From Rhodospirillales bacterium (GTDB lineage Bacteria > Pseudomonadota > Alphaproteobacteria > Rhodospirillales > Casp-alpha2), in NCBI GenBank assembly GCA_013203955.1, contig JABMOY010000019.1, positions 1-37,303 on the forward strand: a stretch of DNA of 37,303 nucleotides. Reading direction: 5' to 3'. The notes under the pieces are model-generated. The model saw nothing but the letters and a program-made list of their open reading frames with translations, was not told the DNA's origin and did not search any database. The position numbers were made by a program, and so were the translations under genes. Of this stretch, positions 1 through 7,716 are shown in pieces. How positions within the stretch are numbered: position 1 is the first letter of the stretch; every line of letters starts with the position of its first letter.

Positions 1-141
1 ATGGTCGAACAAAACGCCAAAAAGGGGCTGGAATTTGCCGATATCGGCTATGTGTTGGTGTCCGGTGAAACCGCCATCGCCGGGTCCGGCGATGAATTGC
101 TGGCAAACCCCGAAGTCGGGCGCCTCTTTTTAGGCGGCTAA
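1..141 (+). CDS. livF: LivF-type branched-chain amino acid ABC transporter ATPase, 3' end only
   Basis: The first 46 codons read in frame from base 1 to a TAA stop at 139-141. The peptide starts MVEQNAKKGLEFAD and ends in LANPEVGRLFLGG. This is the usual C-terminal tail of LivF-family ATPases: the post-H-loop VEQN stretch, then a short beta strand (YVLVSGE) and the LANPEVxxxFLGG end. The ATG at base 1 is an internal Met, because the Walker motifs and signature must lie upstream of the window. In the family, LivF energises uptake of branched-chain amino acids, amides or urea together with LivG, LivH, LivM and a binding protein, none of which is visible here. The stop overlaps the stop of the convergent antiporter operon by 4 bases, leaving no room for a terminator between them. 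The family is clear; the exact substrate is not. Confidence 0.8.
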   Translation: MVEQNAKKGLEFADIGYVLVSGETAIAGSGDELLANPEVGRLFLGG

Positions 142-1826
142 ATCAAATACAGCACCAGATAGACCGCCAATAAGGCGACCGCCCAGAACACCATGTACCC
201 GGCGGCAATGGACCGGGCGAGTACGCCGCTTGGCCCGACCCAGCGAAAGACGCTGCTGATAAACCCGTTTAGTCCCGCCAGGAACGCCGCCCGGATACCC
301 CGGTCGACGGGGGCATAGACCTTTATCAGCCATCGAATGGTGGCGGTCAGGAAGCGGCGATAGAACCAATCCATGTCTAGGCTGATGGTCAGCGTCCGCT
401 TCAACAGGGGAAGGCATATGAAGAAAGCCAAGCCCGAGAACAACAGCAATTTCAACATCGTCAACACGTGGGTTGCCGTATAGGGAACGTAATTGACCTT
501 AAACGGCAGCAACGCATAAAGCGGTTCCGGAAACACCCCAATGGCTATGCAGAGAACTGCGAAAAAGATCATGGCGAGCCGCATGTTGAGCGGCGGGTCC
601 GGGGGCCGGAGCCCGGAATCTTTCTGGAAGAAAACGAACCACGGGAACTTGATGCCGGCATGCAGGAACACGCCGGCCGACGCCGCCGCCAACATGAACC
701 AGGCGATCATCAGGCTTTCATCGGCGGCGGCCTGTGAAATCATCGATTTGGAAATGAACCCGGACGTCAGCGGGAAAGACGAAATCGACAGCGCCCCGAT
801 GACCCCGCATATCATGGTCAGGGGCATCGATTGGAACAATCCGCCCAGGTCGGAACATTTCCGTTTCCCGGTCATCATCAGCACCGAGCCCGCCGACATC
901 AGCAACAGCGCCTTATAGATGATGTGGGTAAAGGCGTGCGCCGCCGCCCCGTTGAGTGCCATCTCGGTGCCGATGCCGATGCCGGTGACCATGAACCCGA
1001 CCTGGTTGACGATGGAATACGCCAAAATCCGCCGCATGTCGTTTTCCAACAGCGCATAAATGATCCCGTAAAACACCATATAAAGGCCGACGAAAATCAA
1101 GATCTCGGCGCCGGGAAAGCCCCTGATTAAAACGTACACCGCGGTCTTGGTTGTAAAGGCGCTCAGGAACACCATGCCGCCGGGGGATGCTTCTGGATAG
1201 GCGTCCGGTAGCCACGCCGACAGCGGCGGCGCGGCGGCGTTAATCAGGAAACCCAACAACATCATCCAGGTGGCGAACGATTCCAGTTGCATGGCGGTGA
1301 AGGCTACGGCGCCGGTGGTGTTGATATGAGAGACAATCCCCACCAGCAATAACGAGCCCCCCAGGATGTGCATGGTCAGATACCGCATGGCGGCGGCCAT
1401 CGACCGGTTGCCGCCGGCGCACAACAACACCGTCGTCGAGCCTAGGGCCATAACCTCCCAAAACAGGAACAGGGTCAGCAGGTCGCGGGCAAAGGTGACG
1501 CCGATGGCGCTGCCGGCATAGATAAAGGCGGCGGTAATTTCGCTGGTGCGGCAATGGTTGATGGCAAACAGCCCGCCGGCGAAGGCCATGATCGAAAATA
1601 TAATGGCGAACAGGCGGCTCAGCGCATCGCCGGCAAGCGGCGTCAGGGTATAATCGAACAGGGAAACCGTAAAGACCGGCCCGTCCGGCACGTTGCTAAC
1701 CAGCCACAACACGAATAGCGGCAAGACCAGAATCCAAGTCTTTTGCAACGCCCCGCGAAGGAACGGAATGGCGAAAGCGCCGAGGATCAGCACGATGCCA
1801 GGAGGGATGTTTTCAATCGCCGTCAT
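138..1826 (-). CDS. Mrp-type antiporter, third D-like (proton-conducting) subunit
   Basis: This is a 562-residue polytopic membrane protein of the NuoL/M/N-MrpA/D family (proton-conducting transporter domain). The conserved TM5 glutamate is visible in LFWEVMAL (E124). The TM7 region, however, reads GFLINAAAPPLSAWLPDAY, with Asn (residue 196) where functional paralogues, including the two others in this operon, have the ion-pathway Lys. K227 in FTTKTAVYVLIRGF sits where the next buried Lys is expected. The C-terminus is about 60 residues longer than in a standard MrpD and ends in one more hydrophobic helix. It is the last gene of the operon. Its ATG overlaps the stop of the small upstream gene (ATGA type, 1823-1826), so translational coupling is likely. 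Role by inference: an antiporter-like module of an Mrp-like complex, possibly a non-pumping or altered one. Membership of the family is firm; the ion it moves is unknown. Confidence 0.85.
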   Translation of the reverse strand: MTAIENIPPGIVLILGAFAIPFLRGALQKTWILVLPLFVLWLVSNVPDGPVFTVSLFDYTLTPLAGDALSRLFAIIFSIMAFAGGLFAINHCRTSEITAAFIYAGSAIGVTFARDLLTLFLFWEVMALGSTTVLLCAGGNRSMAAAMRYLTMHILGGSLLLVGIVSHINTTGAVAFTAMQLESFATWMMLLGFLINAAAPPLSAWLPDAYPEASPGGMVFLSAFTTKTAVYVLIRGFPGAEILIFVGLYMVFYGIIYALLENDMRRILAYSIVNQVGFMVTGIGIGTEMALNGAAAHAFTHIIYKALLLMSAGSVLMMTGKRKCSDLGGLFQSMPLTMICGVIGALSISSFPLTSGFISKSMISQAAADESLMIAWFMLAAASAGVFLHAGIKFPWFVFFQKDSGLRPPDPPLNMRLAMIFFAVLCIAIGVFPEPLYALLPFKVNYVPYTATHVLTMLKLLLFSGLAFFICLPLLKRTLTISLDMDWFYRRFLTATIRWLIKVYAPVDRGIRAAFLAGLNGFISSVFRWVGPSGVLARSIAAGYMVFWAVALLAVYLVLYLI

Positions 1827-2197
1827 AAATAATACGTGTCCTTGCGTCTTAAAAGCTTTCCCAGCCCCTTTGCGAAGAAGATCATGGCAACACAGGCGGC
1901 GAACCCGAACCAGGCGTTGAAGCCGAAGGTGTCATCGAGCCCGAAGGTGCCGTGCGCCGGAACCCAGATCTCGACAACGACCAGCGCGGCCAAAACCACG
2001 CCGCCGCCGATCCACAGCTTGCGGATGGTATCGGGACGGACAAGCCAGTGCAGCGAAGAGTCCTTTTCGGTAGGCTTCGCCGACGTATTTTTCCGGGCGG
2101 CCTTTTCCGGCGCTTTTTTCGCGGTGCTCTTCGCCGACTTCTTCGGCTTTGGCTTCGACTTGCCTTTGCTTTGGCGGGTTTTTTTCTTGTCAGTCAT
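1823..2197 (-). CDS. Small Lys/Ala-rich two-helix membrane protein in the Mrp operon
   Basis: The protein has 124 residues if started at the ATG at 2197, giving MTDKKKTRQSKGK. An in-frame TTG at 2221 would add eight residues and overlap the upstream gene, so it is less likely. The first half is a low-complexity Lys/Ala/Ser/Pro segment of about 55 residues. It is followed by LHWLVRPDTIRKLW and two hydrophobic segments (IGGGVVLAALVVVEIWV and FGFAACVAMIFFAKGLGKLL), the pattern of a small inner-membrane protein with a basic cytoplasmic tail. It lies 10 bases after the second D-like gene and overlaps the third by 4 bases, so it is certainly cotranscribed. I do not recognise a named family. The position suggests an accessory or assembly subunit of this antiporter type, which is inference from context only. 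Confidence 0.7.
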   Translation of the reverse strand: MTDKKKTRQSKGKSKPKPKKSAKSTAKKAPEKAARKNTSAKPTEKDSSLHWLVRPDTIRKLWIGGGVVLAALVVVEIWVPAHGTFGLDDTFGFNAWFGFAACVAMIFFAKGLGKLLRRKDTYYL

Positions 2198-2207
2198 GCT
2201 TCCAAAC

Positions 2208-3728
2208 CTAGGGCGCAACAATCAATTGCATCAAGTTGTAAACCGGTTCGGGATAGAAAAATAAAACCAAACACCCCGCCGACGTAACGGTAATGGCGAC
2301 CAAGCAGGCTGCGGGGGCTTCCTTGATGCCCCGGGGCCGGTCCAGGTCGCGGGTGTGGTCATGTTCCGGGTCGTGAGGATGGCAGGGTTCCGGCAAGGGA
2401 TTTCCCCCCGGGTCACTAAAAAATCCACGAAACGGTATAGGCAACAGATAAGCGACGTTCAAAAGCGAGCTGACGACCATGACACCAACCAATACCACTT
2501 GGTCGGCCTCCAACGCGCCCAAGAACAGATACCATTTGCTCCACAGGCCCCCAAAAGGCGGCAGACCGATAATCGACAGGCTGCCGATCAGGAAGGCAGT
2601 GGTGGTGATCGGCATGGACTTGCCGATGCCGTGCATCTGGCTGATTTCGGTCTTGTGGGCCGCTACCATGAAGGCGCCGGCGCAGAAAAATAGCGTGATC
2701 TTGCCGAAGGCGTGGGTGGCGATGTGCATGCCGCTGCCGACGATGCCCAAGTCCGTCACCAGCATCGCGCCCAAAACGATGTAGGAAAGCTGGCTGATGG
2801 TGGAATAGGCCAGCCTAGCCTTCAGGTTGTCCTTTGTCATGGCAACCAGCGACGCAATTAAAATCGTCGCCGCGGCAACGTACTGCAGCCATTGGCTGGC
2901 GCCCAGCTCGAACAGGAAATCGACACCGAAAATATAGACCACCACCTTAAGGATGGTGAACACGCCGGCCTTGACCACGGCGACCGCATGCAGCAACGCC
3001 GATACCGGAGTCGGCGCCACCATCGCCGCCGGCAGCCAACGGTGAAACGGCATCAACGCCGCTTTGCCGATGCCGAATGCATACAACGCCAACAGCACGG
3101 CGACCACGGTCGCGCTAGTATCGTTGGTAAAAAGCCCGCCGTTGATAAAATCCAGGGTTCCGGAAATGGTCCAGGTCCAGATGATGGCGGTCAACAGAAA
3201 GCAAATGGACGTTCCGAGCAGAATACCAAGATATACCCGTCCGGCCCGCTTCGCCTCGTCCGTGCCGTTGTGAGCAACCAAGGGGAAGGTCGAAATCGTC
3301 AGCACCTCGTAGAAAATAAACAGGGTCAGCATATTGCCGGCAAAGGCGACGCCCATGGCGGCGCCCAAGGCGACAGCGAAAAAGGCATAGAACCGTGTTT
3401 GGTTTTCCTCGTGGTGGCCGCGCATATAACCGATTGAATAAACCGACGTTATCAGCCACAGAAAACTGGCGATCCCGGCGAAGATCATGCCCAGCGGCTC
3501 GACCGTGAAGGCGATGCTGAGCCCCGGCAGCATTTCCAGTAATTCCACCGATGGGGTTTGGCCCTCGGCGACGGCGGGATAAAGGCTGTAAACAAAATAA
3601 ACCAGGACGACCGCCGTTATAAGCGTCAGTGTTTCGCGAATGTTCGGATAGCGGCCCAAAAACGGGATCACGGCGGCGCCGACGAACGGCGTCAGAATTG
3701 CCAGGAGGATGATTTGTTCCAAGGCCAT
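2208..3728 (-). CDS. Mrp-type antiporter, second D-like subunit with MrpA/NuoL-like signature
   Basis: This is a 506-residue polytopic proton-conducting transporter family protein. The TM5 Glu is in FIFYEVLTIS and the TM7 Lys in GIGKAALMPFHRWLP. The following stretch, AAMVAPTPVSALLHAVAVVKAG, resembles the NuoL/MrpA N-terminal signature (AMxxPTPVSALxHxxxxVxAG) more than MrpD. No full-length MrpA is encoded here, and the MrpA C-terminal part is fused to MrpB, so this subunit may fill the MrpA N-terminal (NuoL-like) slot. That is inference. Residues 449-460 form a His-rich loop (CHPHDPEHDHTR) before the last helix, an unusual insertion that could bind metal. The gene follows mrpD by two bases. 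The start ATG at 3728 is well placed inside a run of overlapping genes. Family certain, subunit assignment moderate. Confidence 0.87.
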   Translation of the reverse strand: MALEQIILLAILTPFVGAAVIPFLGRYPNIRETLTLITAVVLVYFVYSLYPAVAEGQTPSVELLEMLPGLSIAFTVEPLGMIFAGIASFLWLITSVYSIGYMRGHHEENQTRFYAFFAVALGAAMGVAFAGNMLTLFIFYEVLTISTFPLVAHNGTDEAKRAGRVYLGILLGTSICFLLTAIIWTWTISGTLDFINGGLFTNDTSATVVAVLLALYAFGIGKAALMPFHRWLPAAMVAPTPVSALLHAVAVVKAGVFTILKVVVYIFGVDFLFELGASQWLQYVAAATILIASLVAMTKDNLKARLAYSTISQLSYIVLGAMLVTDLGIVGSGMHIATHAFGKITLFFCAGAFMVAAHKTEISQMHGIGKSMPITTTAFLIGSLSIIGLPPFGGLWSKWYLFLGALEADQVVLVGVMVVSSLLNVAYLLPIPFRGFFSDPGGNPLPEPCHPHDPEHDHTRDLDRPRGIKEAPAACLVAITVTSAGCLVLFFYPEPVYNLMQLIVAP

Positions 3729-3730
3729 GG

Positions 3731-5224
3731 CTATGGCGTCCCCCGCAACAGAACTTCCGCAGACCCGATGGCAACATCAAGCACGTCGGTCGCGTCAATG
3801 CCGAAATATACCGAGGCCCCGATCAAGACCCACATCGGCACCAGCATGCTAAGAGGGGCTTCGGAAATGGCGGTTGCACCATCGGCGGGCGGGTGGAAAT
3901 AGGCGGCTTCGACGACCCGCCAGACATAGATGAGCGCCAACAGGGAGCTGACCAAAATTGCCGCCACTGCCAACCACCAACCCCGCTCCAGGGCAGCTTG
4001 GATCAAATACCACTTCGACACGAAACCGACCGTCAGCGGCACGCCGACGAGGCTCAAACCTCCGGCGACGAAGGCCGCCATGGTCGCCGGCATGCGCTTG
4101 CCTAAACCGTTGAAGGCGCTGATCTCAACAGAACCGATACGTAGCGCAATGCAGCCCATGGCCATGAACAAGCCGCCTTTCATCAAGGCGTGGTTGAACA
4201 GATGAATAATGCTCGCCGCAAGCCCCGTAACTGTGGCCGTGGAAATGCCGAGGACGATATAACCAATTTGCGCGACAGACGAATACGCCAACATGCGCTT
4301 GATGTTGGTCTGATAAATGGCTGCCGCCGAAGCGATGATCATGCCGGCTATTGCCAGAAGCAGCAGCAAAAGGCCAATGCTGTTATCGGCAAGAATTTCG
4401 ACCCCACCGAAAACGGTGAAATAAATCCTGATCAAGGCATAAACGGCGACCTTGGTTCCCGTAGACGCTAAAAAAACGGTGACCATCGAAGGCGCGAAGG
4501 TATAGGCATTGGGCAACCACAGATGCAGGGGAAACAGCGCCAATTTCAGGCTGAGCCCCACGGTCAGAAAAGCCAGCGCCACGAGAATGGTCTTGGTGTC
4601 AGCGACCGCTGGCAGGATGGTCGAAAGATCGGCCATGTTGAGCGAGCCGGTCATCATGTACATCATGCCGACTCCGATGATGTAGAAGGTGGCGCCGATG
4701 GTGCCCATGATCAGGTAACGAAAGGCTGCGCTCAGCGCCCGTCGGTCAGACCCTAAGCTGATCAGCACATAAGATGACAGCGACGAAATCTCCATGAACA
4801 CAAACAGGTTAAAAACGTCGCCGGTGATGGCGATGCCCAGCAATCCAGCCAGGTTGAGAAGGTACATGGCGTAAAAAAGGTAGATGCGTGCATCTTCGAT
4901 TTCCGCTCCGACGCTTATCCGGGCATAGGGCAGGGCAACGGCGCCGATCATCGTGACAATAACCAGGATGAAGGCGTTGACGGTATCGATCCGGTATTCG
5001 ATACCCCAGGGCGCCGCCCAATCACCAAGTGAATAAACGATTTCACCGCCCGTCAGGGTCTGATCCAAAAGCCCCAACGCAATCGCCAATGACACCCACG
5101 TAATTATCGTGGCAATAAACCACGAAGCGCGGGGGTTGCGCAAAATCAGGCACACCGGGGCAGCCAAAAGGGCCAACGCCACTTGCAAAGCCGGCAGCTG
5201 CTGTGAAAGCTGGGCTTCGATCAA
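3731..5224 (-). CDS. mrpD: Na+(K+)/H+ antiporter subunit D (MrpD/MnhD)
   Basis: This is a 497-residue inner-membrane antiporter subunit with about 14 hydrophobic segments, the normal length for MrpD. The TM5 motif NLFVFMEISSLSSYVLIS carries the conserved Glu, and LSLKLALFPLHLWLPNAYTFAPS carries the TM7 Lys and the WLPNAY signature typical of MrpD. In characterised Mrp complexes MrpD, with MrpA, forms the ion-translocating core that exchanges cytoplasmic Na+ or K+ for protons. Its ATG overlaps the mrpC stop by four bases (5221-5224), and the next gene starts two bases beyond its own stop, consistent with one polycistronic mRNA. Of the three D-like proteins in this operon it is the most canonical, with all key residues visible. 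Confidence 0.92.
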   Translation of the reverse strand: MIEAQLSQQLPALQVALALLAAPVCLILRNPRASWFIATIITWVSLAIALGLLDQTLTGGEIVYSLGDWAAPWGIEYRIDTVNAFILVIVTMIGAVALPYARISVGAEIEDARIYLFYAMYLLNLAGLLGIAITGDVFNLFVFMEISSLSSYVLISLGSDRRALSAAFRYLIMGTIGATFYIIGVGMMYMMTGSLNMADLSTILPAVADTKTILVALAFLTVGLSLKLALFPLHLWLPNAYTFAPSMVTVFLASTGTKVAVYALIRIYFTVFGGVEILADNSIGLLLLLLAIAGMIIASAAAIYQTNIKRMLAYSSVAQIGYIVLGISTATVTGLAASIIHLFNHALMKGGLFMAMGCIALRIGSVEISAFNGLGKRMPATMAAFVAGGLSLVGVPLTVGFVSKWYLIQAALERGWWLAVAAILVSSLLALIYVWRVVEAAYFHPPADGATAISEAPLSMLVPMWVLIGASVYFGIDATDVLDVAIGSAEVLLRGTP

Positions 5225-5580
5225 CGCTCAAGCTCCCGGTCCTGGGTGTCGATTTCAAAGTCCTCGATGGTGCCGTAGGCATCGCGGATACGAACCACCA
5301 GCGCCAAGCCCAGCGCCGTCGTCGCCACGCCGACGACGATGGCTGTCAGGATCAGAACATGGGGCAGGGGGTTGGTATAGACCTCGATCCCTTGGGCCAG
5401 GATCGGCGCCGTGCCGCCCTTTATTTTTGCCATGGTGATGTAAAAGGTAAAAACCGAAACCTGGAAAATATTCAGGCCGACAATCTTCTTCACTAAATTG
5501 TTTTGGGAAATGACGATGTAAAAGCCGGTCATCATCAGAACGATGACGATCCAGTAAACAATAAGCCCCGGGAATTCCAT
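5221..5580 (-). CDS. mrpC: Na+(K+)/H+ antiporter subunit C (MrpC/MnhC, NuoK-like)
   Basis: This is a 119-residue protein with three hydrophobic segments, homologous in layout to NuoK. Recognisable features are GFYIVISQNNLVKKIVGLNI near the N-terminus and the PLPHVLILTAIVVGVATTALGLALVVRI block, which is diagnostic for MnhC. In Mrp complexes this subunit packs against MrpA and MrpD and helps link their ion channels. The gene begins three bases after the stop of the fused A/B gene and overlaps mrpD by four bases. A short acidic tail (DFEIDTQDRELER) follows the last helix. No anomaly seen. Confidence 0.92.
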   Translation of the reverse strand: MEFPGLIVYWIVIVLMMTGFYIVISQNNLVKKIVGLNIFQVSVFTFYITMAKIKGGTAPILAQGIEVYTNPLPHVLILTAIVVGVATTALGLALVVRIRDAYGTIEDFEIDTQDRELER

Positions 5581-5583
5581 GGC

Positions 5584-6549
5584 TCAGTGTTCCTGCCGGG
5601 CAAAAGTGTAAAAAATGGTAATCATTGCCGCCGCCACCGTCAGGCCGACACCGAATTCGACCAGCAAAATGCCCAGATGCTGGCCGGAGGTCGGCTCGCT
5701 GGCGAGAACGTTGTAATTAAGGAAATTCCCACCCAGAAAGATCCCAGCCATGCCGACGCCCGCGTACAACAAAACACCAAGCGCCAGACAGAGCCTCGTT
5801 GCCCAGGTTGGAACCACCATGCGCGACATATCGACATCGAAAATCAGAGCATAAAGTATGAATCCGGCAGCGAAGATCACCCCTGCCTGAAAGCCGCCGC
5901 CGGGGCCGAAATCCCCATGCCATTGAACGTAAAGCGCAAAGACCAGAATGAACGGGATCAAAAGTTTTGATAAAACCCGTAAAATGACGTTTCGGCTCAT
6001 GCCAAGCCGCATTTCTCCGACGCCCATCCTGAGCGTTCGCCGTCGGCCGCGTTGAGGCCGCCCGATAATCAGCAAGACGCCCAGGGCAGCCGTGAAAATA
6101 ACGAAGACTTCACCCAGGGTGTCATAGCCCCGGTAACTCGCCAGAACCGATGTCACGACGTTGGGAATTCCGATTTCCTGTCCCGATTTTTCCAAGTAAC
6201 GCGGTACGACATGATGATGAATGACGGATGTCGGATCGCCATAAGGCGGCATGTCGAATGTCCCATAAACCAGGACAGCGCCGGTGATGATAACTAAACC
6301 CAATGCTAACCAAGGCTTCCGGCTCTCCAGGTGTTTTTCTTCACTCGTCGTCAGGGCCAATGTCCCCAACATTAAAACCGTTGAGATGCCGGCGCCGACG
6401 GCGGCTTCGGTAAAGGCCACGTCGACGGCATCCAGAACCACATAGAGCGCCGCCGCCGTTAGACTGAAAATGCTGGTCAGCATGACGACGCCAAACAGGT
6501 TTCTCAGGCGCGCCACGGCAAATCCGATCGTCGCCATGAAAACCATCAA
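5584..6549 (-). CDS. Fused MrpA C-terminal domain / MrpB antiporter subunit
   Basis: The protein has 321 residues from the TTG at 6549. The N-terminal part (about residues 1-90) is the DUF4040/MbhD-like domain, with VVMLTSIFSLTAAALYVVLDAVDVAF and AAVGAGISTVLMLGT. The middle contains the MrpA C-terminal/MbhE-like motif YRGYDTLGEVFVIFTAALGV. The C-terminal 150 residues are MnhB, with WHGDFGPGGGFQAGVIFAAGFILY. In classical Mrp operons the first two parts end a large MrpA of about 800 residues. Here they are cut from the NuoL-like domain and joined to MrpB. The start is uncertain. The reading frame stays open upstream to 6585 without ATG, GTG or TTG, and a good Shine-Dalgarno sequence (GAGGGAG, 6584-6590) is spaced ideally for an ATC codon at 6571-6573, which would restore an expected EDLIVLSL start. 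Alternatives are TTG at 6549 or ATG at 6546. Confidence 0.88.
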   Translation of the reverse strand: MMVFMATIGFAVARLRNLFGVVMLTSIFSLTAAALYVVLDAVDVAFTEAAVGAGISTVLMLGTLALTTSEEKHLESRKPWLALGLVIITGAVLVYGTFDMPPYGDPTSVIHHHVVPRYLEKSGQEIGIPNVVTSVLASYRGYDTLGEVFVIFTAALGVLLIIGRPQRGRRRTLRMGVGEMRLGMSRNVILRVLSKLLIPFILVFALYVQWHGDFGPGGGFQAGVIFAAGFILYALIFDVDMSRMVVPTWATRLCLALGVLLYAGVGMAGIFLGGNFLNYNVLASEPTSGQHLGILLVEFGVGLTVAAAMITIFYTFARQEH

Positions 6550-6560
6550 CGAAAGGACAA

Positions 6561-6920
6561 TCAGGTCTTCGATGGTGATTCTCCCTCATTTTTTATTTCG
6601 TTTTTCTGCTCGTTGGCGCTATCCAACCGGGGCAGGACGCCCGCATTCACGGCCGCGCGGGCAAGAGCGTGAGTGGCGGTTGGACTGGTAAACAAGAGAA
6701 AGACGACGATTAATGCCAACTTAATAGTGACAATCGTCAGCCCGGCCTGCAGCATCAGGCCAATAAGGATTGTGCACGCGCCCATGGTGTCGATTATGCC
6801 CACGGCATGCATACGGGAAAAAACGTCGGGCAGCCGGTTGATGCCGATGCCGCCGATGATCAACATGACCGAGCCAACGATCAATAAACCCCAACTGGCG
6901 ATTTCCAGAATAATCGCCAT
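6561..6920 (-). CDS. mrpG: Na+(K+)/H+ antiporter subunit G (MrpG/MnhG)
   Basis: This is a 119-residue protein with three predicted membrane helices. It contains the family hallmark GINRLPDVFSRMHAVGIIDTMG near residue 30 and FTSPTATHALARAA after the third helix, both standard in MnhG. MrpG is a small accessory subunit required for assembly of the complex. The last 20 residues are a charged, poorly conserved tail. Its first codon overlaps the mrpF stop at 6920. Its stop lies inside the probable translation start zone of the next gene, so the two are likely coupled. Confidence 0.92.
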   Translation of the reverse strand: MAIILEIASWGLLIVGSVMLIIGGIGINRLPDVFSRMHAVGIIDTMGACTILIGLMLQAGLTIVTIKLALIVVFLLFTSPTATHALARAAVNAGVLPRLDSANEQKNEIKNEGESPSKT

Positions 6921-7210
6921 CAGATATCCCCCAGCTCATCGCCGCCTGTCGGCCGCCCCATATGGGAAAATTCGACGAATTTTGAGACCGCGATGGTGGC
7001 GATGAAGTTAATCAAGGCGTAAACCAAGGCCAGATCCAGGAAATCGGGTCGCCCGCTCATAAATCCATATACCGAAATCAAAACCACCGTCAGCGTCCCG
7101 AAGGCATTGACGGCCAGAATCCTGTCATAAACGGTTGGCCCCTTGATGGACCGGATCAACGCCAAAGACATGGTAACCAAAACAGCGAACGCGGCGACGG
7201 CGAACATCAT
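6920..7210 (-). CDS. mrpF: Na+(K+)/H+ antiporter subunit F (MrpF/MnhF)
   Basis: This is a 96-residue small membrane subunit with three hydrophobic segments. The conserved block GPTVYDRILAVNAFGTLTVVL and the final ALVYALINFIATIAVSKF are diagnostic for MnhF. Two adjacent ATG codons (7210 and 7207) could both serve. The first overlaps the mrpE TGA as ATGA, which suggests coupled translation. Homologues contribute to the E-F-G wing of the Mrp complex and, in some bacteria, bile salt efflux has been linked to MrpF. Nothing here indicates that extra role. Confidence 0.92.
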   Translation of the reverse strand: MMFAVAAFAVLVTMSLALIRSIKGPTVYDRILAVNAFGTLTVVLISVYGFMSGRPDFLDLALVYALINFIATIAVSKFVEFSHMGRPTGGDELGDI

Positions 7211-7716
7211 GACGAACTCCCGCTTTTGTTCTGCTCGTCCGTGGAGTGCGCTTCCATGGCCGTGACCCGGCGATCCATGTCGCCGGTTTGCAAATGCTCA
7301 GTGGCGGTGCGGGTCAAGGTATGGACGCTGAAGATGTCTTTTTCGATGGCGATGGTGACCGTGCCCGGGGTCAGGGTGATGGAATTGGCGTAAATCACCT
7401 GTCCCAGTTCGGTTTCCTGCGTCGCCTTCACCTCCACGAATGAAGGGCTGATCGGCATTTTTCGGCGGAGGATGACCCCGGCGACATGGATATTAGCCTT
7501 GATGATTTCCAGAATAAGCCAGGGCCAGTAGAAAATAGCCCGGATCGTTAAGTGTATGGGATGCCCTTCGTGATCGACGACGTCCATCCGGTAGGCGATC
7601 CAAACGACAGCGATGACCGACCCCACCCCAAGGGAGAGAAGCAATGGCTCAAAAAAACCCGAGAGCAAGAGCCAAAGGCCGAAAAGGACCATGCCCAAAC
7701 TTAGCGCGTGCAACAA
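7207..7716 (-). CDS. mrpE: Na+(K+)/H+ antiporter subunit E (MrpE/MnhE)
   Basis: This is a 169-residue protein and the first gene of the nine-gene minus-strand operon. Two N-terminal hydrophobic helices are followed by the cytoplasmic MnhE domain, with the typical TELGQVIYANSITLTPGTV and DIFSVHTLT. The start is TTG at 7716. It is supported by a strong Shine-Dalgarno run (GGGGGGGAGG) seven bases upstream, and no ATG gives the right N-terminus. The protein ends in a Ser-rich tail (EQNKSGSSS). The promoter of the operon should lie in 7717-7830, but I see no convincing -35/-10 pair there. Confidence 0.92.
   Translation of the reverse strand: MLHALSLGMVLFGLWLLLSGFFEPLLLSLGVGSVIAVVWIAYRMDVVDHEGHPIHLTIRAIFYWPWLILEIIKANIHVAGVILRRKMPISPSFVEVKATQETELGQVIYANSITLTPGTVTIAIEKDIFSVHTLTRTATEHLQTGDMDRRVTAMEAHSTDEQNKSGSSS

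Follow-up and report, generated by a model that had tools for sequence, protein, structure and literature searches.

What kind of ion-transporting machine does an operon encode when it holds every small subunit of a Mrp antiporter and three antiporter-like proteins, and no full-length MrpA? Here we address this question for a nine-gene operon at the beginning of contig JABMOY010000019.1 from a marine Rhodospirillales bacterium (assembly GCA_013203955.1), using "the window" for the whole stretch of 37,303 nucleotides that was analysed. With a probability of roughly 60%, we read the operon as encoding a Mrp-like (CPA3-type) cation/proton antiporter of a split-MrpA, three-antiporter-subunit kind, with a remodelled ion path and an exchangeable end that probably pumps weakly or not at all. 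This Mrp relative has three motor-like subunits rather than two, and its third motor is swapped among relatives together with a small partner protein. The antiporter-like subunits are called D1, D2 and D3 in their order along the operon, and X is the small protein between D2 and D3 (Table 1).

The Mrp-like reading is supported by gene content: a single compact operon encodes every small subunit of Mrp together with the two C-terminal domains of MrpA. Nine open reading frames (ORFs) follow one another on the minus strand from 7716 to 138, each where the initial annotation had placed it; neighbours overlap by 1-14 nt or are 2-3 nt apart (with mechanically assigned starts), and this tight spacing makes them look like a single operon. 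Pfam recognises MNHE, MrpF, PhaG, a single protein with MbhD, MbhE and MnhB, Oxidored_q2, and Proton_antipo_M in three proteins. The fusion protein passes NCBIfam NF009161 (397.6 bits, cut-off 272) and D3 passes NF009310 (678 bits, cut-off 564); D1 and D2 stay below the cut-offs of their best models (NF009305, 495 versus 700 bits, and NF006236, 562 versus 663 bits). ORFs, Pfam and NCBIfam thus agree with the initial annotation on an E-F-G-(A C-terminal part + B)-C-D-D-D operon with one added small gene, a layout that we refer to as the three-D type.

The same annotation was right that the operon has no full-length MrpA: the MbhD/MbhE part stands apart and is joined to MrpB, and neither a second MrpA nor an mrpA gene completing a classical complex was found in the organism's own assembly, which is 96% complete, 7% contaminated and divided into 245 contigs. 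Since no NuoL-like match was found in this fragmented assembly either, the absence of MrpA from it is by itself no proof, and both the contig number and the missing NuoL would fit a classical MrpA that is present in the organism and was lost from the assembly, the operon being an accessory paralogue. However, when 142 genomes were sampled evenly from the window's class, a full-length MrpA match was missing from 29 of the 32 that have the three-D type (this genome among them), and we consider such a loss very improbable. PF00361 has five matches in the genome, three in the window and two on another contig (C219), where a short antiporter-like piece at the contig edge comes just before a NuoN-like ORF; MbhD has a single match, the one in the window. 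The assembly seems to be broken inside the nuo operon at the edge of C219.

The three antiporter-like subunits represent different lineages in an 81-protein tree, drawn from the window, 14 other three-D loci, 8 of 10 MrpA loci, 2 of 3 rhizobial loci and 3 of 5 Nuo loci. D1 (94/81) groups with MrpD and NuoN (98/94), D2 and its rhizobial homologues form their own clade (100/100), as does D3 (100/100), and MrpA, NuoL and HyfD make up another (100/97). A placement of all three in MrpD would have refuted the initial annotation; only D1 groups there, and a single clade of D1, D2, D3 and MrpD is rejected, not strongly, by the approximately unbiased (AU) test (p = 0.023, L077_D3 being excluded from the D3 set). 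The third antiporter-like protein of Peptoclostridium (L077, 13272-15215) holds the D3 position in its operon and falls outside the D3 clade.

Conserved pump residues of D1 and D2 also support the Mrp-like reading. The D1 of the window has the Glu of transmembrane helix (TM) 5 and the lysines of TM7, TM8 and TM12, and the TM7 Lys is found in 55/55 readable D1 rows and 66/66 D2 rows. A classical Mrp is expected to have two or more antiporter-like subunits that carry Glu in TM5 and Lys in both TM7 and TM12, and D1 and D2 do carry these residues. In D2, a TM8 His and a TM8 Lys are each present in 62 of 63 readable rows; according to the available text of the Anoxybacillus flavithermus paper, the TM8 histidine was added in MrpA and kept in NuoL (PMC7419157). 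The TM8 stretch that led the initial annotation to propose D2 as the NuoL-like part of MrpA is therefore there, and by motif we read D2 as occupying the MrpA-N position, its descent being unproven. At 506 aa, D2 is too short to hold a NuoL-type C-terminal extension.

Such an extension is found in D3. Its AlphaFold model (26-row alignment; mean predicted local distance difference test (pLDDT) score 83, predicted template-modelling (pTM) score 0.82) has the usual helical core and ends in a 45-residue helix followed by a last helix. VIA-align matches the model to NuoL (7z84_L, Z 44.4, root-mean-square deviation (rmsd) 3.1, 482 aligned; 9q8i_L, Z 44.3, rmsd 8.5, 509 aligned, model residues 3-543), with MrpD in a tie (7qru_D, Z 43.5, rmsd 2.3, 438 aligned, residues 2-444), and the modelled end piece is NuoL-like in kind. 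The best PDB sequence match of D3 is MbsH', which we set aside as an origin of D3, there being no tree placement to go with it.

The feature that distinguishes the window's D3 is the TM7 pump-lysine position, which we take to be Lys229, Lys234 and Lys217 in NuoL, NuoM and NuoN of E. coli. In columns aligned to these three proteins the residue is Asn196, lying in GFLINAAAPPLSAW, a stretch that has no charged residue. Over 60 D3 rows the position is Lys in 40, Asn in 16, Arg and Ser in one each, and a gap in two; Asn is found in all six D3s read from the rhizobial "green complex I" (a redox enzyme discussed below) and in two haloarchaeal D3s, which keep a nearby His. Each of three other pump residues (TM5 Glu, TM8 Lys and TM12 Lys) is conserved in 57/58 readable rows, which would suit a D3 that, even in its Asn196 form, is a full third proton channel through the TM8 and TM12 lysines and gives a higher proton:cation ratio than classical Mrp. 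Both green-complex subunits are also counted as pumping in the text available of PMC9040806. The Asn shared by the window and the six green-complex D3s, in an uncharged GFLINAAAPPLSAW setting, speaks against this and makes a full third channel unlikely in our estimation. We also find no support for the "added ion channel" of the initial annotation: X shows two hydrophobic segments and matches no channel family, and the window's D3 is without one pump lysine. Pfam does not recognise X, NCBIfam gives it one weak hit far below the cut-off (TIGR01620, 15.9 versus 160 bits), and its single match to a solved structure (E 0.62) was dismissed. Kyte-Doolittle helix counts over-split the large subunits and were left unused for these.

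A tree of 54 of the 60 D3 rows (seven loci were named for omission as partial or duplicate, of which L077 had no row) places the non-lysine rows at the base and the lysine form in one clade (99/99), with one Arg row inside it. Given the Lys in all other antiporter-like families, this would mean that the TM7 Lys was lost at the base of D3 and later regained; the direction is not relied on here because long branches meet at that point.

A number of observations weigh against our reading of the operon as a cation/proton antiporter with a weakly pumping end. D2 stands on the MrpA/NuoL side of the tree with a support of only 48/54, for which reason its descent from MrpA or NuoL, the other half of the initial proposal, is not claimed. 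The lateral-helix part of the D3 model has low confidence (pLDDT about 40-65 in the final helices), and the loss of the TM7 lysine need not abolish pumping. A search of the open-access literature found no functional study of the three-D type. A further objection concerns the cation path, in which MrpF D35 and MrpA E706, D792 and E796 are reported as needed for activity in the part of the A. flavithermus study open to us (PMC7419157; residue numbering verified on the 6z16 chains). In the three-D type the MrpF D35 position is Asn in 50, Ser in two and Ala in one of 53 rows, archaeal ones included, and the MrpA E706 position is Gly in 52/52 rows. With two residues called essential replaced, ordinary Na+ transport is in doubt. 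The window's MrpC also has Val and Phe as equivalents of H37 and H40; since both histidines are missing from the ten MrpA-type alphaproteobacterial MrpCs examined as well, this loss is not diagnostic of another ion.

The replacements set the type apart from the MrpA-type operons of the class. The MrpF position is Asp in 10/10 MrpA-type operons of the class, and the Asp is likewise kept in the membrane-bound hydrogenase (MBH) and membrane-bound sulfane reductase (MBS); MrpA-type rows of the class have Gln and then Glu at E706 in 6/6 readable cases, four of the ten rows being unreadable there. The three-D rows instead have a Glu four residues, or one helix turn, before the E706 position (TExxxG, 52/52). 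Exchange of both reported essential residues across the type, in bacteria and archaea, would be expected if no cation were exported at all, the small-subunit side forming a different channel (for protons only, or another solute) in a proton-driven or proton-leak device. We hold this to be quite unlikely, as DTLGE, which contains D792 and E796, is kept in 52/52 three-D rows, the substitute Glu lies one turn from the lost one, and the window retains the equivalents of MrpG H42 and P86 and of MrpE P114 and H131 (A. flavithermus numbering for MrpE). Its MrpF keeps D29, with Asn in place of D35. The residues suggest that the whole type (archaea included for MrpF) has a changed coupling region, and Bacillus-like Na+ transport should not be assumed; the "specialised cation antiporter" of the initial annotation may be right, and the altered ion-path residues add weight to it. 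The replacement of two supposedly essential residues is also a test of the current model of the Mrp cation path.

On our preferred antiporter reading, the nine proteins would form one complex in which protons enter through D1, in the MrpD position beside MrpC and the MrpA C-terminal part, and through D2 in the MrpA-N position. D1 and D2 have the usual charged pump residues, and the proton inflow would drive cation export through the E/F/G/A-C/B side. With D35 and E706 replaced and a new Glu one turn earlier, the ion, or its coupling, may differ from the Na+ of Bacillus-type Mrp. D3 would lie at the far end with X, its putative NuoL-like lateral helix tying the row together. A D3 of the window's type, which has no TM7 Lys, would most likely pump weakly or not at all and act as an end cap or brake; the other type of D3, in which the TM7 Lys is present, may add a third proton path.

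These two D3 types go together with two types of X. The X motif W(L/F)x(R/K)PxTIxx(L/M)W, which was drawn from the same sequences in which it was counted, occurs in eight loci, all with an Asn-type D3, and in none of 39 Lys-type loci. Six other X rows are without the exact motif: three rhizobial ones, L063 and L094 (Asn) and L093 (Arg), L063 being off by one residue. Median identity within types versus between types is 42-43% versus 26% for X and 60-67% versus 45% for D3, whereas D2 (56 and 59% within, 56% between) and D1 (62 and 51% within, 52% between) show little or no split by type.

The split is also seen between close relatives. Compared with the window, the DNA of L010 and L016 is 93-97% identical from E to D2 and 87% identical in the first part of X, falls to about 50% inside X (window 2180-2060) and 67% in D3, and returns to 94.4% over 3,435 aligned bases that start 27 (L010) or 83 (L016) bases past the last D3 codon. 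The same switch is seen in L009 and L011 (81-92% before, 49% in X, 58% in D3 and 87% over 329 bases after), and the D3s of L007 and L010 are 97% identical. The accession prefixes of the three Lys-type and four Asn-type records in the window's close group are of several kinds, which speaks against a single chimeric contig. The membrane part of X and D3 are thus exchanged as one unit between close relatives, and this suggests that X and D3 work together. Such natural swaps of a motor subunit in operons that are otherwise about 94% identical provide ready-made pairs for studying the role of the third subunit, the TM7 Lys and stoichiometry.

A scan of one genome per species over 84,980 species, by a method that reaches close relatives only, yielded 40 loci, of which 32 have all nine genes in the same order (a few with the end gene cut by a contig edge) and seven are shortened by a contig end. 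The MbhD/E part and MnhB form one ORF in 18 of the 40 loci and two ORFs in 22. One locus labelled Gemmatimonadetes (L037, 13200-18190) has only E-F-G-AB-C-D1-D2, followed by an ORF read as HemC-like, and no X or D3 match was found in the remaining 5 kb after D2. From its sequence, L037 appears to be a natural two-subunit form, and as it ends after D2, X-D3 looks like an add-on.

In the class sample, NF009310 scores above its cut-off in 32/142 genomes, the window's own included, and by manual count each of the 32 also has an MbhD match in an ORF of <400 aa no more than 5 kb away on that contig. If TIGR00940 matches of 476-914 bits that cover at least 95% of the model are counted as full-length MrpA, 19/142 genomes have one; none of these matches reaches the family cut-off of 920, and the next ones drop to 293 bits. 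The three-D type therefore outnumbers full-length MrpA in this sample, the two counts using different thresholds, and both occur together in three genomes. One genome (G123) has two NF009310-type D3 copies on different contigs (C7 and C18), each with its own MbhD gene nearby.

Outside the Proteobacteria, two haloarchaeal plasmids (L076 and L078) have E-F-G-DUF4040-MnhB-C-D-D-D and Peptoclostridium (L077) has E-F-G-MbhD-MbhE-MnhB-C-D-D-D. They share the window's gene order and the MrpF Asn at the D35 position; unlike the window, they keep MbhD/E and MnhB separate, and no X was found in them. The three-D type is widespread, and because it is common and found in bacteria and archaea alike it is not the rare transitional form implied by the "evolutionary intermediate" of the initial annotation. 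The type is already known through curated family names, and lies near the "Group 3" Mrp clusters in what is available of PMC5703873.

The gene for the MrpA C-terminal part is unusual in its start codon. In many loci the fusion or DUF4040 gene has no ATG, GTG or TTG at its conserved beginning. Of the 62 loci in which an in-frame stop lies upstream, 30 have ATC in the aligned start column, nine ATA, one ATT, 11 ATG and 11 another codon, so that AUH (A, C or U in third place) is found in 40/62 (among L007-L046, L089-L098, L107-L126 and the window). No ATG, GTG or TTG occurs from the upstream in-frame stop to the eighth codon in 24/62 loci, or in 21/51 once 11 short-stretch rows are removed; the same test gave 0 of 48-51 for E, F, G, C, D1 and D3 and 1/49 for D2. 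A Shine-Dalgarno-like motif (at least 4 bases, 6-9 nt upstream) precedes 33/39 AUH loci, versus 7.7% of random positions, and 5/9 ATG loci; 58 of the 62 loci were placed for this count and four were not, with L031 set on a later ATC than the likely one. Relatives may have ATG in the same column (L019 versus L018 and L020). In the 16 loci where this start and the mrpG stop could both be placed by pattern, the stop begins between 5 nt before and 10 nt after the first base of the start codon in 12, and lies 23-62 nt upstream in the other four.

The conserved start column, the Shine-Dalgarno placement and the ATG in the relatives' column point to initiation at AUC or AUA, often coupled to mrpG, and the window's fusion gene probably uses the ATC of Table 1. 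Some loci may instead use a start 8-9 codons further on; in L089, L116 and L122 the next canonical start lies 20-30 codons into the protein. No AUC or near-cognate start in a Mrp gene was found in open-access titles and abstracts, where AUC hits concern mainly animal mitochondrial genomes. To our knowledge, few near-cognate start codons have been described in bacteria, and a conserved AUC start would add to these.

Table 1. Features of the operon in the window; genes are listed in order of transcription.
Feature	Position	Strand	Basis
MrpE subunit, 169 aa, TTG start	7207..7716	-	Pfam MNHE 2.4e-29; best solved relative MBS chain 6u8y_A
MrpF subunit, 96 aa	6920..7210	-	Pfam MrpF_PhaF 1.8e-19; alignment to 6z16_F
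MrpG subunit, 119 aa; stop overlaps start of next gene	6561..6920	-	Pfam PhaG_MnhG_YufB 1.2e-24
MrpA C-terminal part (MbhD+MbhE) fused to MrpB; 329 aa from proposed ATC start, 321 aa from first canonical start (TTG at 6549)	5584..6573	-	Pfam MbhD, MbhE, MnhB; NF009161
Proposed non-canonical start codon ATC of fusion gene (probable)	6571..6573	-	GGAG 7 nt upstream; aligned start column
MrpC subunit, 119 aa	5221..5580	-	Pfam Oxidored_q2 2e-20
D1, MrpD-type antiporter-like subunit, 497 aa	3731..5224	-	Tree with MrpD and NuoN; residues
D2, antiporter-like subunit, 506 aa, with MrpA/NuoL-type TM8 His and Lys	2208..3728	-	Own clade; residues
X, small protein with two hydrophobic segments, 124 aa from probable ATG start at 2197	1823..2197	-	Conserved between D2 and D3; mechanical ORF 1823-2221
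D3, third antiporter-like subunit with C-terminal extension, 562 aa	138..1826	-	NF009310 678 bits; own clade; AlphaFold
Codon AAC, Asn196 of D3, at TM7 pump-lysine position	1239..1241	-	Alignment to TM7 lysines of NuoL, NuoM and NuoN
Predicted long C-terminal helix of D3, residues 486-530, NuoL-like lateral helix; last helix 542-561 after it	237..371	-	AlphaFold, pLDDT 48-65 here; VIA-align to 9q8i_L
Exchangeable cassette, X membrane part and D3; left edge inside X, ~2180-2060	138..2180	-	Identity drop and recovery among close relatives

The best plasmid matches to D3 sit in rhizobial operons of the order nuoJ-nuoK-D2'-small gene-D3'-nuoM-nuoN-nuoA-B-C-D-E-F-G, with two further, shorter stretches showing nuoJ to nuoN. 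In the 81-protein tree D2' is a member of the D2 clade and D3' of the D3 clade, where D3' is nested among proteobacterial Mrp D3s (88/87); in the larger D3 tree it lies just outside these and inside the haloarchaeal ones. An X profile from which rhizobial rows were excluded detects the small gene of the rhizobial operons (E 3e-14 in L050, 7e-13 in L049 and 8e-12 in L051), so X belongs to both complexes. The unnamed small gene of the rhizobial complex (L049 7742-7996, L050 7742-7996) is accordingly a homologue of X. By sequence, D2-X-D3 is homologous to the module published as replacing NuoL in green complex I, and the D2-X-D3 order, with a lateral helix on D3, is common to this operon and to green complex I (PMC9040806, PMC7415380) and Manganitrophaceae Complex_I_3 (PMC9040806), in so far as their text is accessible. 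Neither "Hypothetical protein" nor "lysine" occurs in the main text of PMC9040806, as far as that text was available. The TM7 residue of D3 bears on the proton counts published for green complex I.

This kinship raises the question of whether the nine proteins pump ions for a redox complex that has its catalytic part encoded at another locus, in the manner of MBH, MBS and green complex I. Archaeal MBS chains are the best solved sequence relatives of the window's E, fusion, C and D3 proteins, and D2-X-D3 does sit in complex I operons; MBH and MBS of Pyrococcus (6cfw, 6u8y) likewise have MbhD/MbhE/MnhB split from the antiporter part. Those systems, however, carry hydrogenase or sulfane-reductase modules, and green complex I has its Nuo peripheral and Q-module genes in the operon. 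The ten ORFs flanking the window's operon comprise DUF192, a 2-oxoglutarate (2OG) oxygenase, HisI, ABC-transporter parts, a Cys/Met enzyme and one matchless piece, with no redox or hydrogenase family among them, one flank being only 137 bp long (read as the end of a LivF-like gene). Nor was a redox family found among the nine ORFs flanking the operon of Magnetovibrio blakemorei MV-1 (L034), a cultured relative whose D3 is of the Asn type. Furthermore, the three-D operon keeps MrpE, MrpF, MrpG and MnhB, which were unseen in the green complex I stretches read. A redox arm is accordingly hardly probable. In green complex I, on the published text available, D2-X-D3 replace NuoL in a redox enzyme; here they adjoin MrpE-F-G-A/B-C-D1.

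A wider picture, which we offer only tentatively, would join these features. The three-D type may be an old, separate Mrp branch that spans bacteria and archaea and has an ion path peculiar to it (Asn for MrpF D35, Gly for MrpA E706, and a Glu one turn away), in which X-D3 would be a portable gearing module of two pump kinds, swapped as a Lys (pumping) or Asn (non-pumping) cassette. Rhizobial complex I might then have taken D2-X-D3 in the non-pumping version, its "extra" subunit adding no proton, and translation of the MrpA-C/MrpB gene from a conserved AUC/AUA start coupled to mrpG might set the ratio of the ion-channel half. In the open-access literature we found no account of the changed ion path, the X-D3 exchange, the TM7-lysine loss, the presence of X in both complexes or the AUC start.

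Among Mrp systems proper, the nearest are the "Group 3" clusters (cyanobacterial mrpCD1D2EFGAB and Microbacterium mrpFGBCDDAE), which in the sections available of PMC5703873 have all Mrp subunit types, more than one MrpD-like gene and an irregular order, and of which the Aphanothece cluster gives Na+/H+ antiport in E. coli. Unlike these, the window's operon has three antiporter-like lineages, a fusion of the MrpA C-terminal part to MrpB, and X; it also has MrpF D35 and MrpA E706 replaced, a contrast with Mrp that rests on non-cyanobacterial sequences. As in classical seven-subunit Mrp (CPA3), B, C, D, E, F and G are encoded together. In classical Mrp, the NuoL-like N-terminal part and the MbhD/MbhE C-terminal part make up one MrpA, whereas here the C-terminal part is fused to MrpB and D2 stands separate, and the classical Asp of MrpF and Glu of MrpA give way to Asn and Gly. 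As MrpA is not one protein here, we call the system Mrp-like and do not file it as classical Mrp. As far as the sources consulted extend, the complex is of a known kind, with a tail module familiar from green complex I; what is new are the testable features of this variant.

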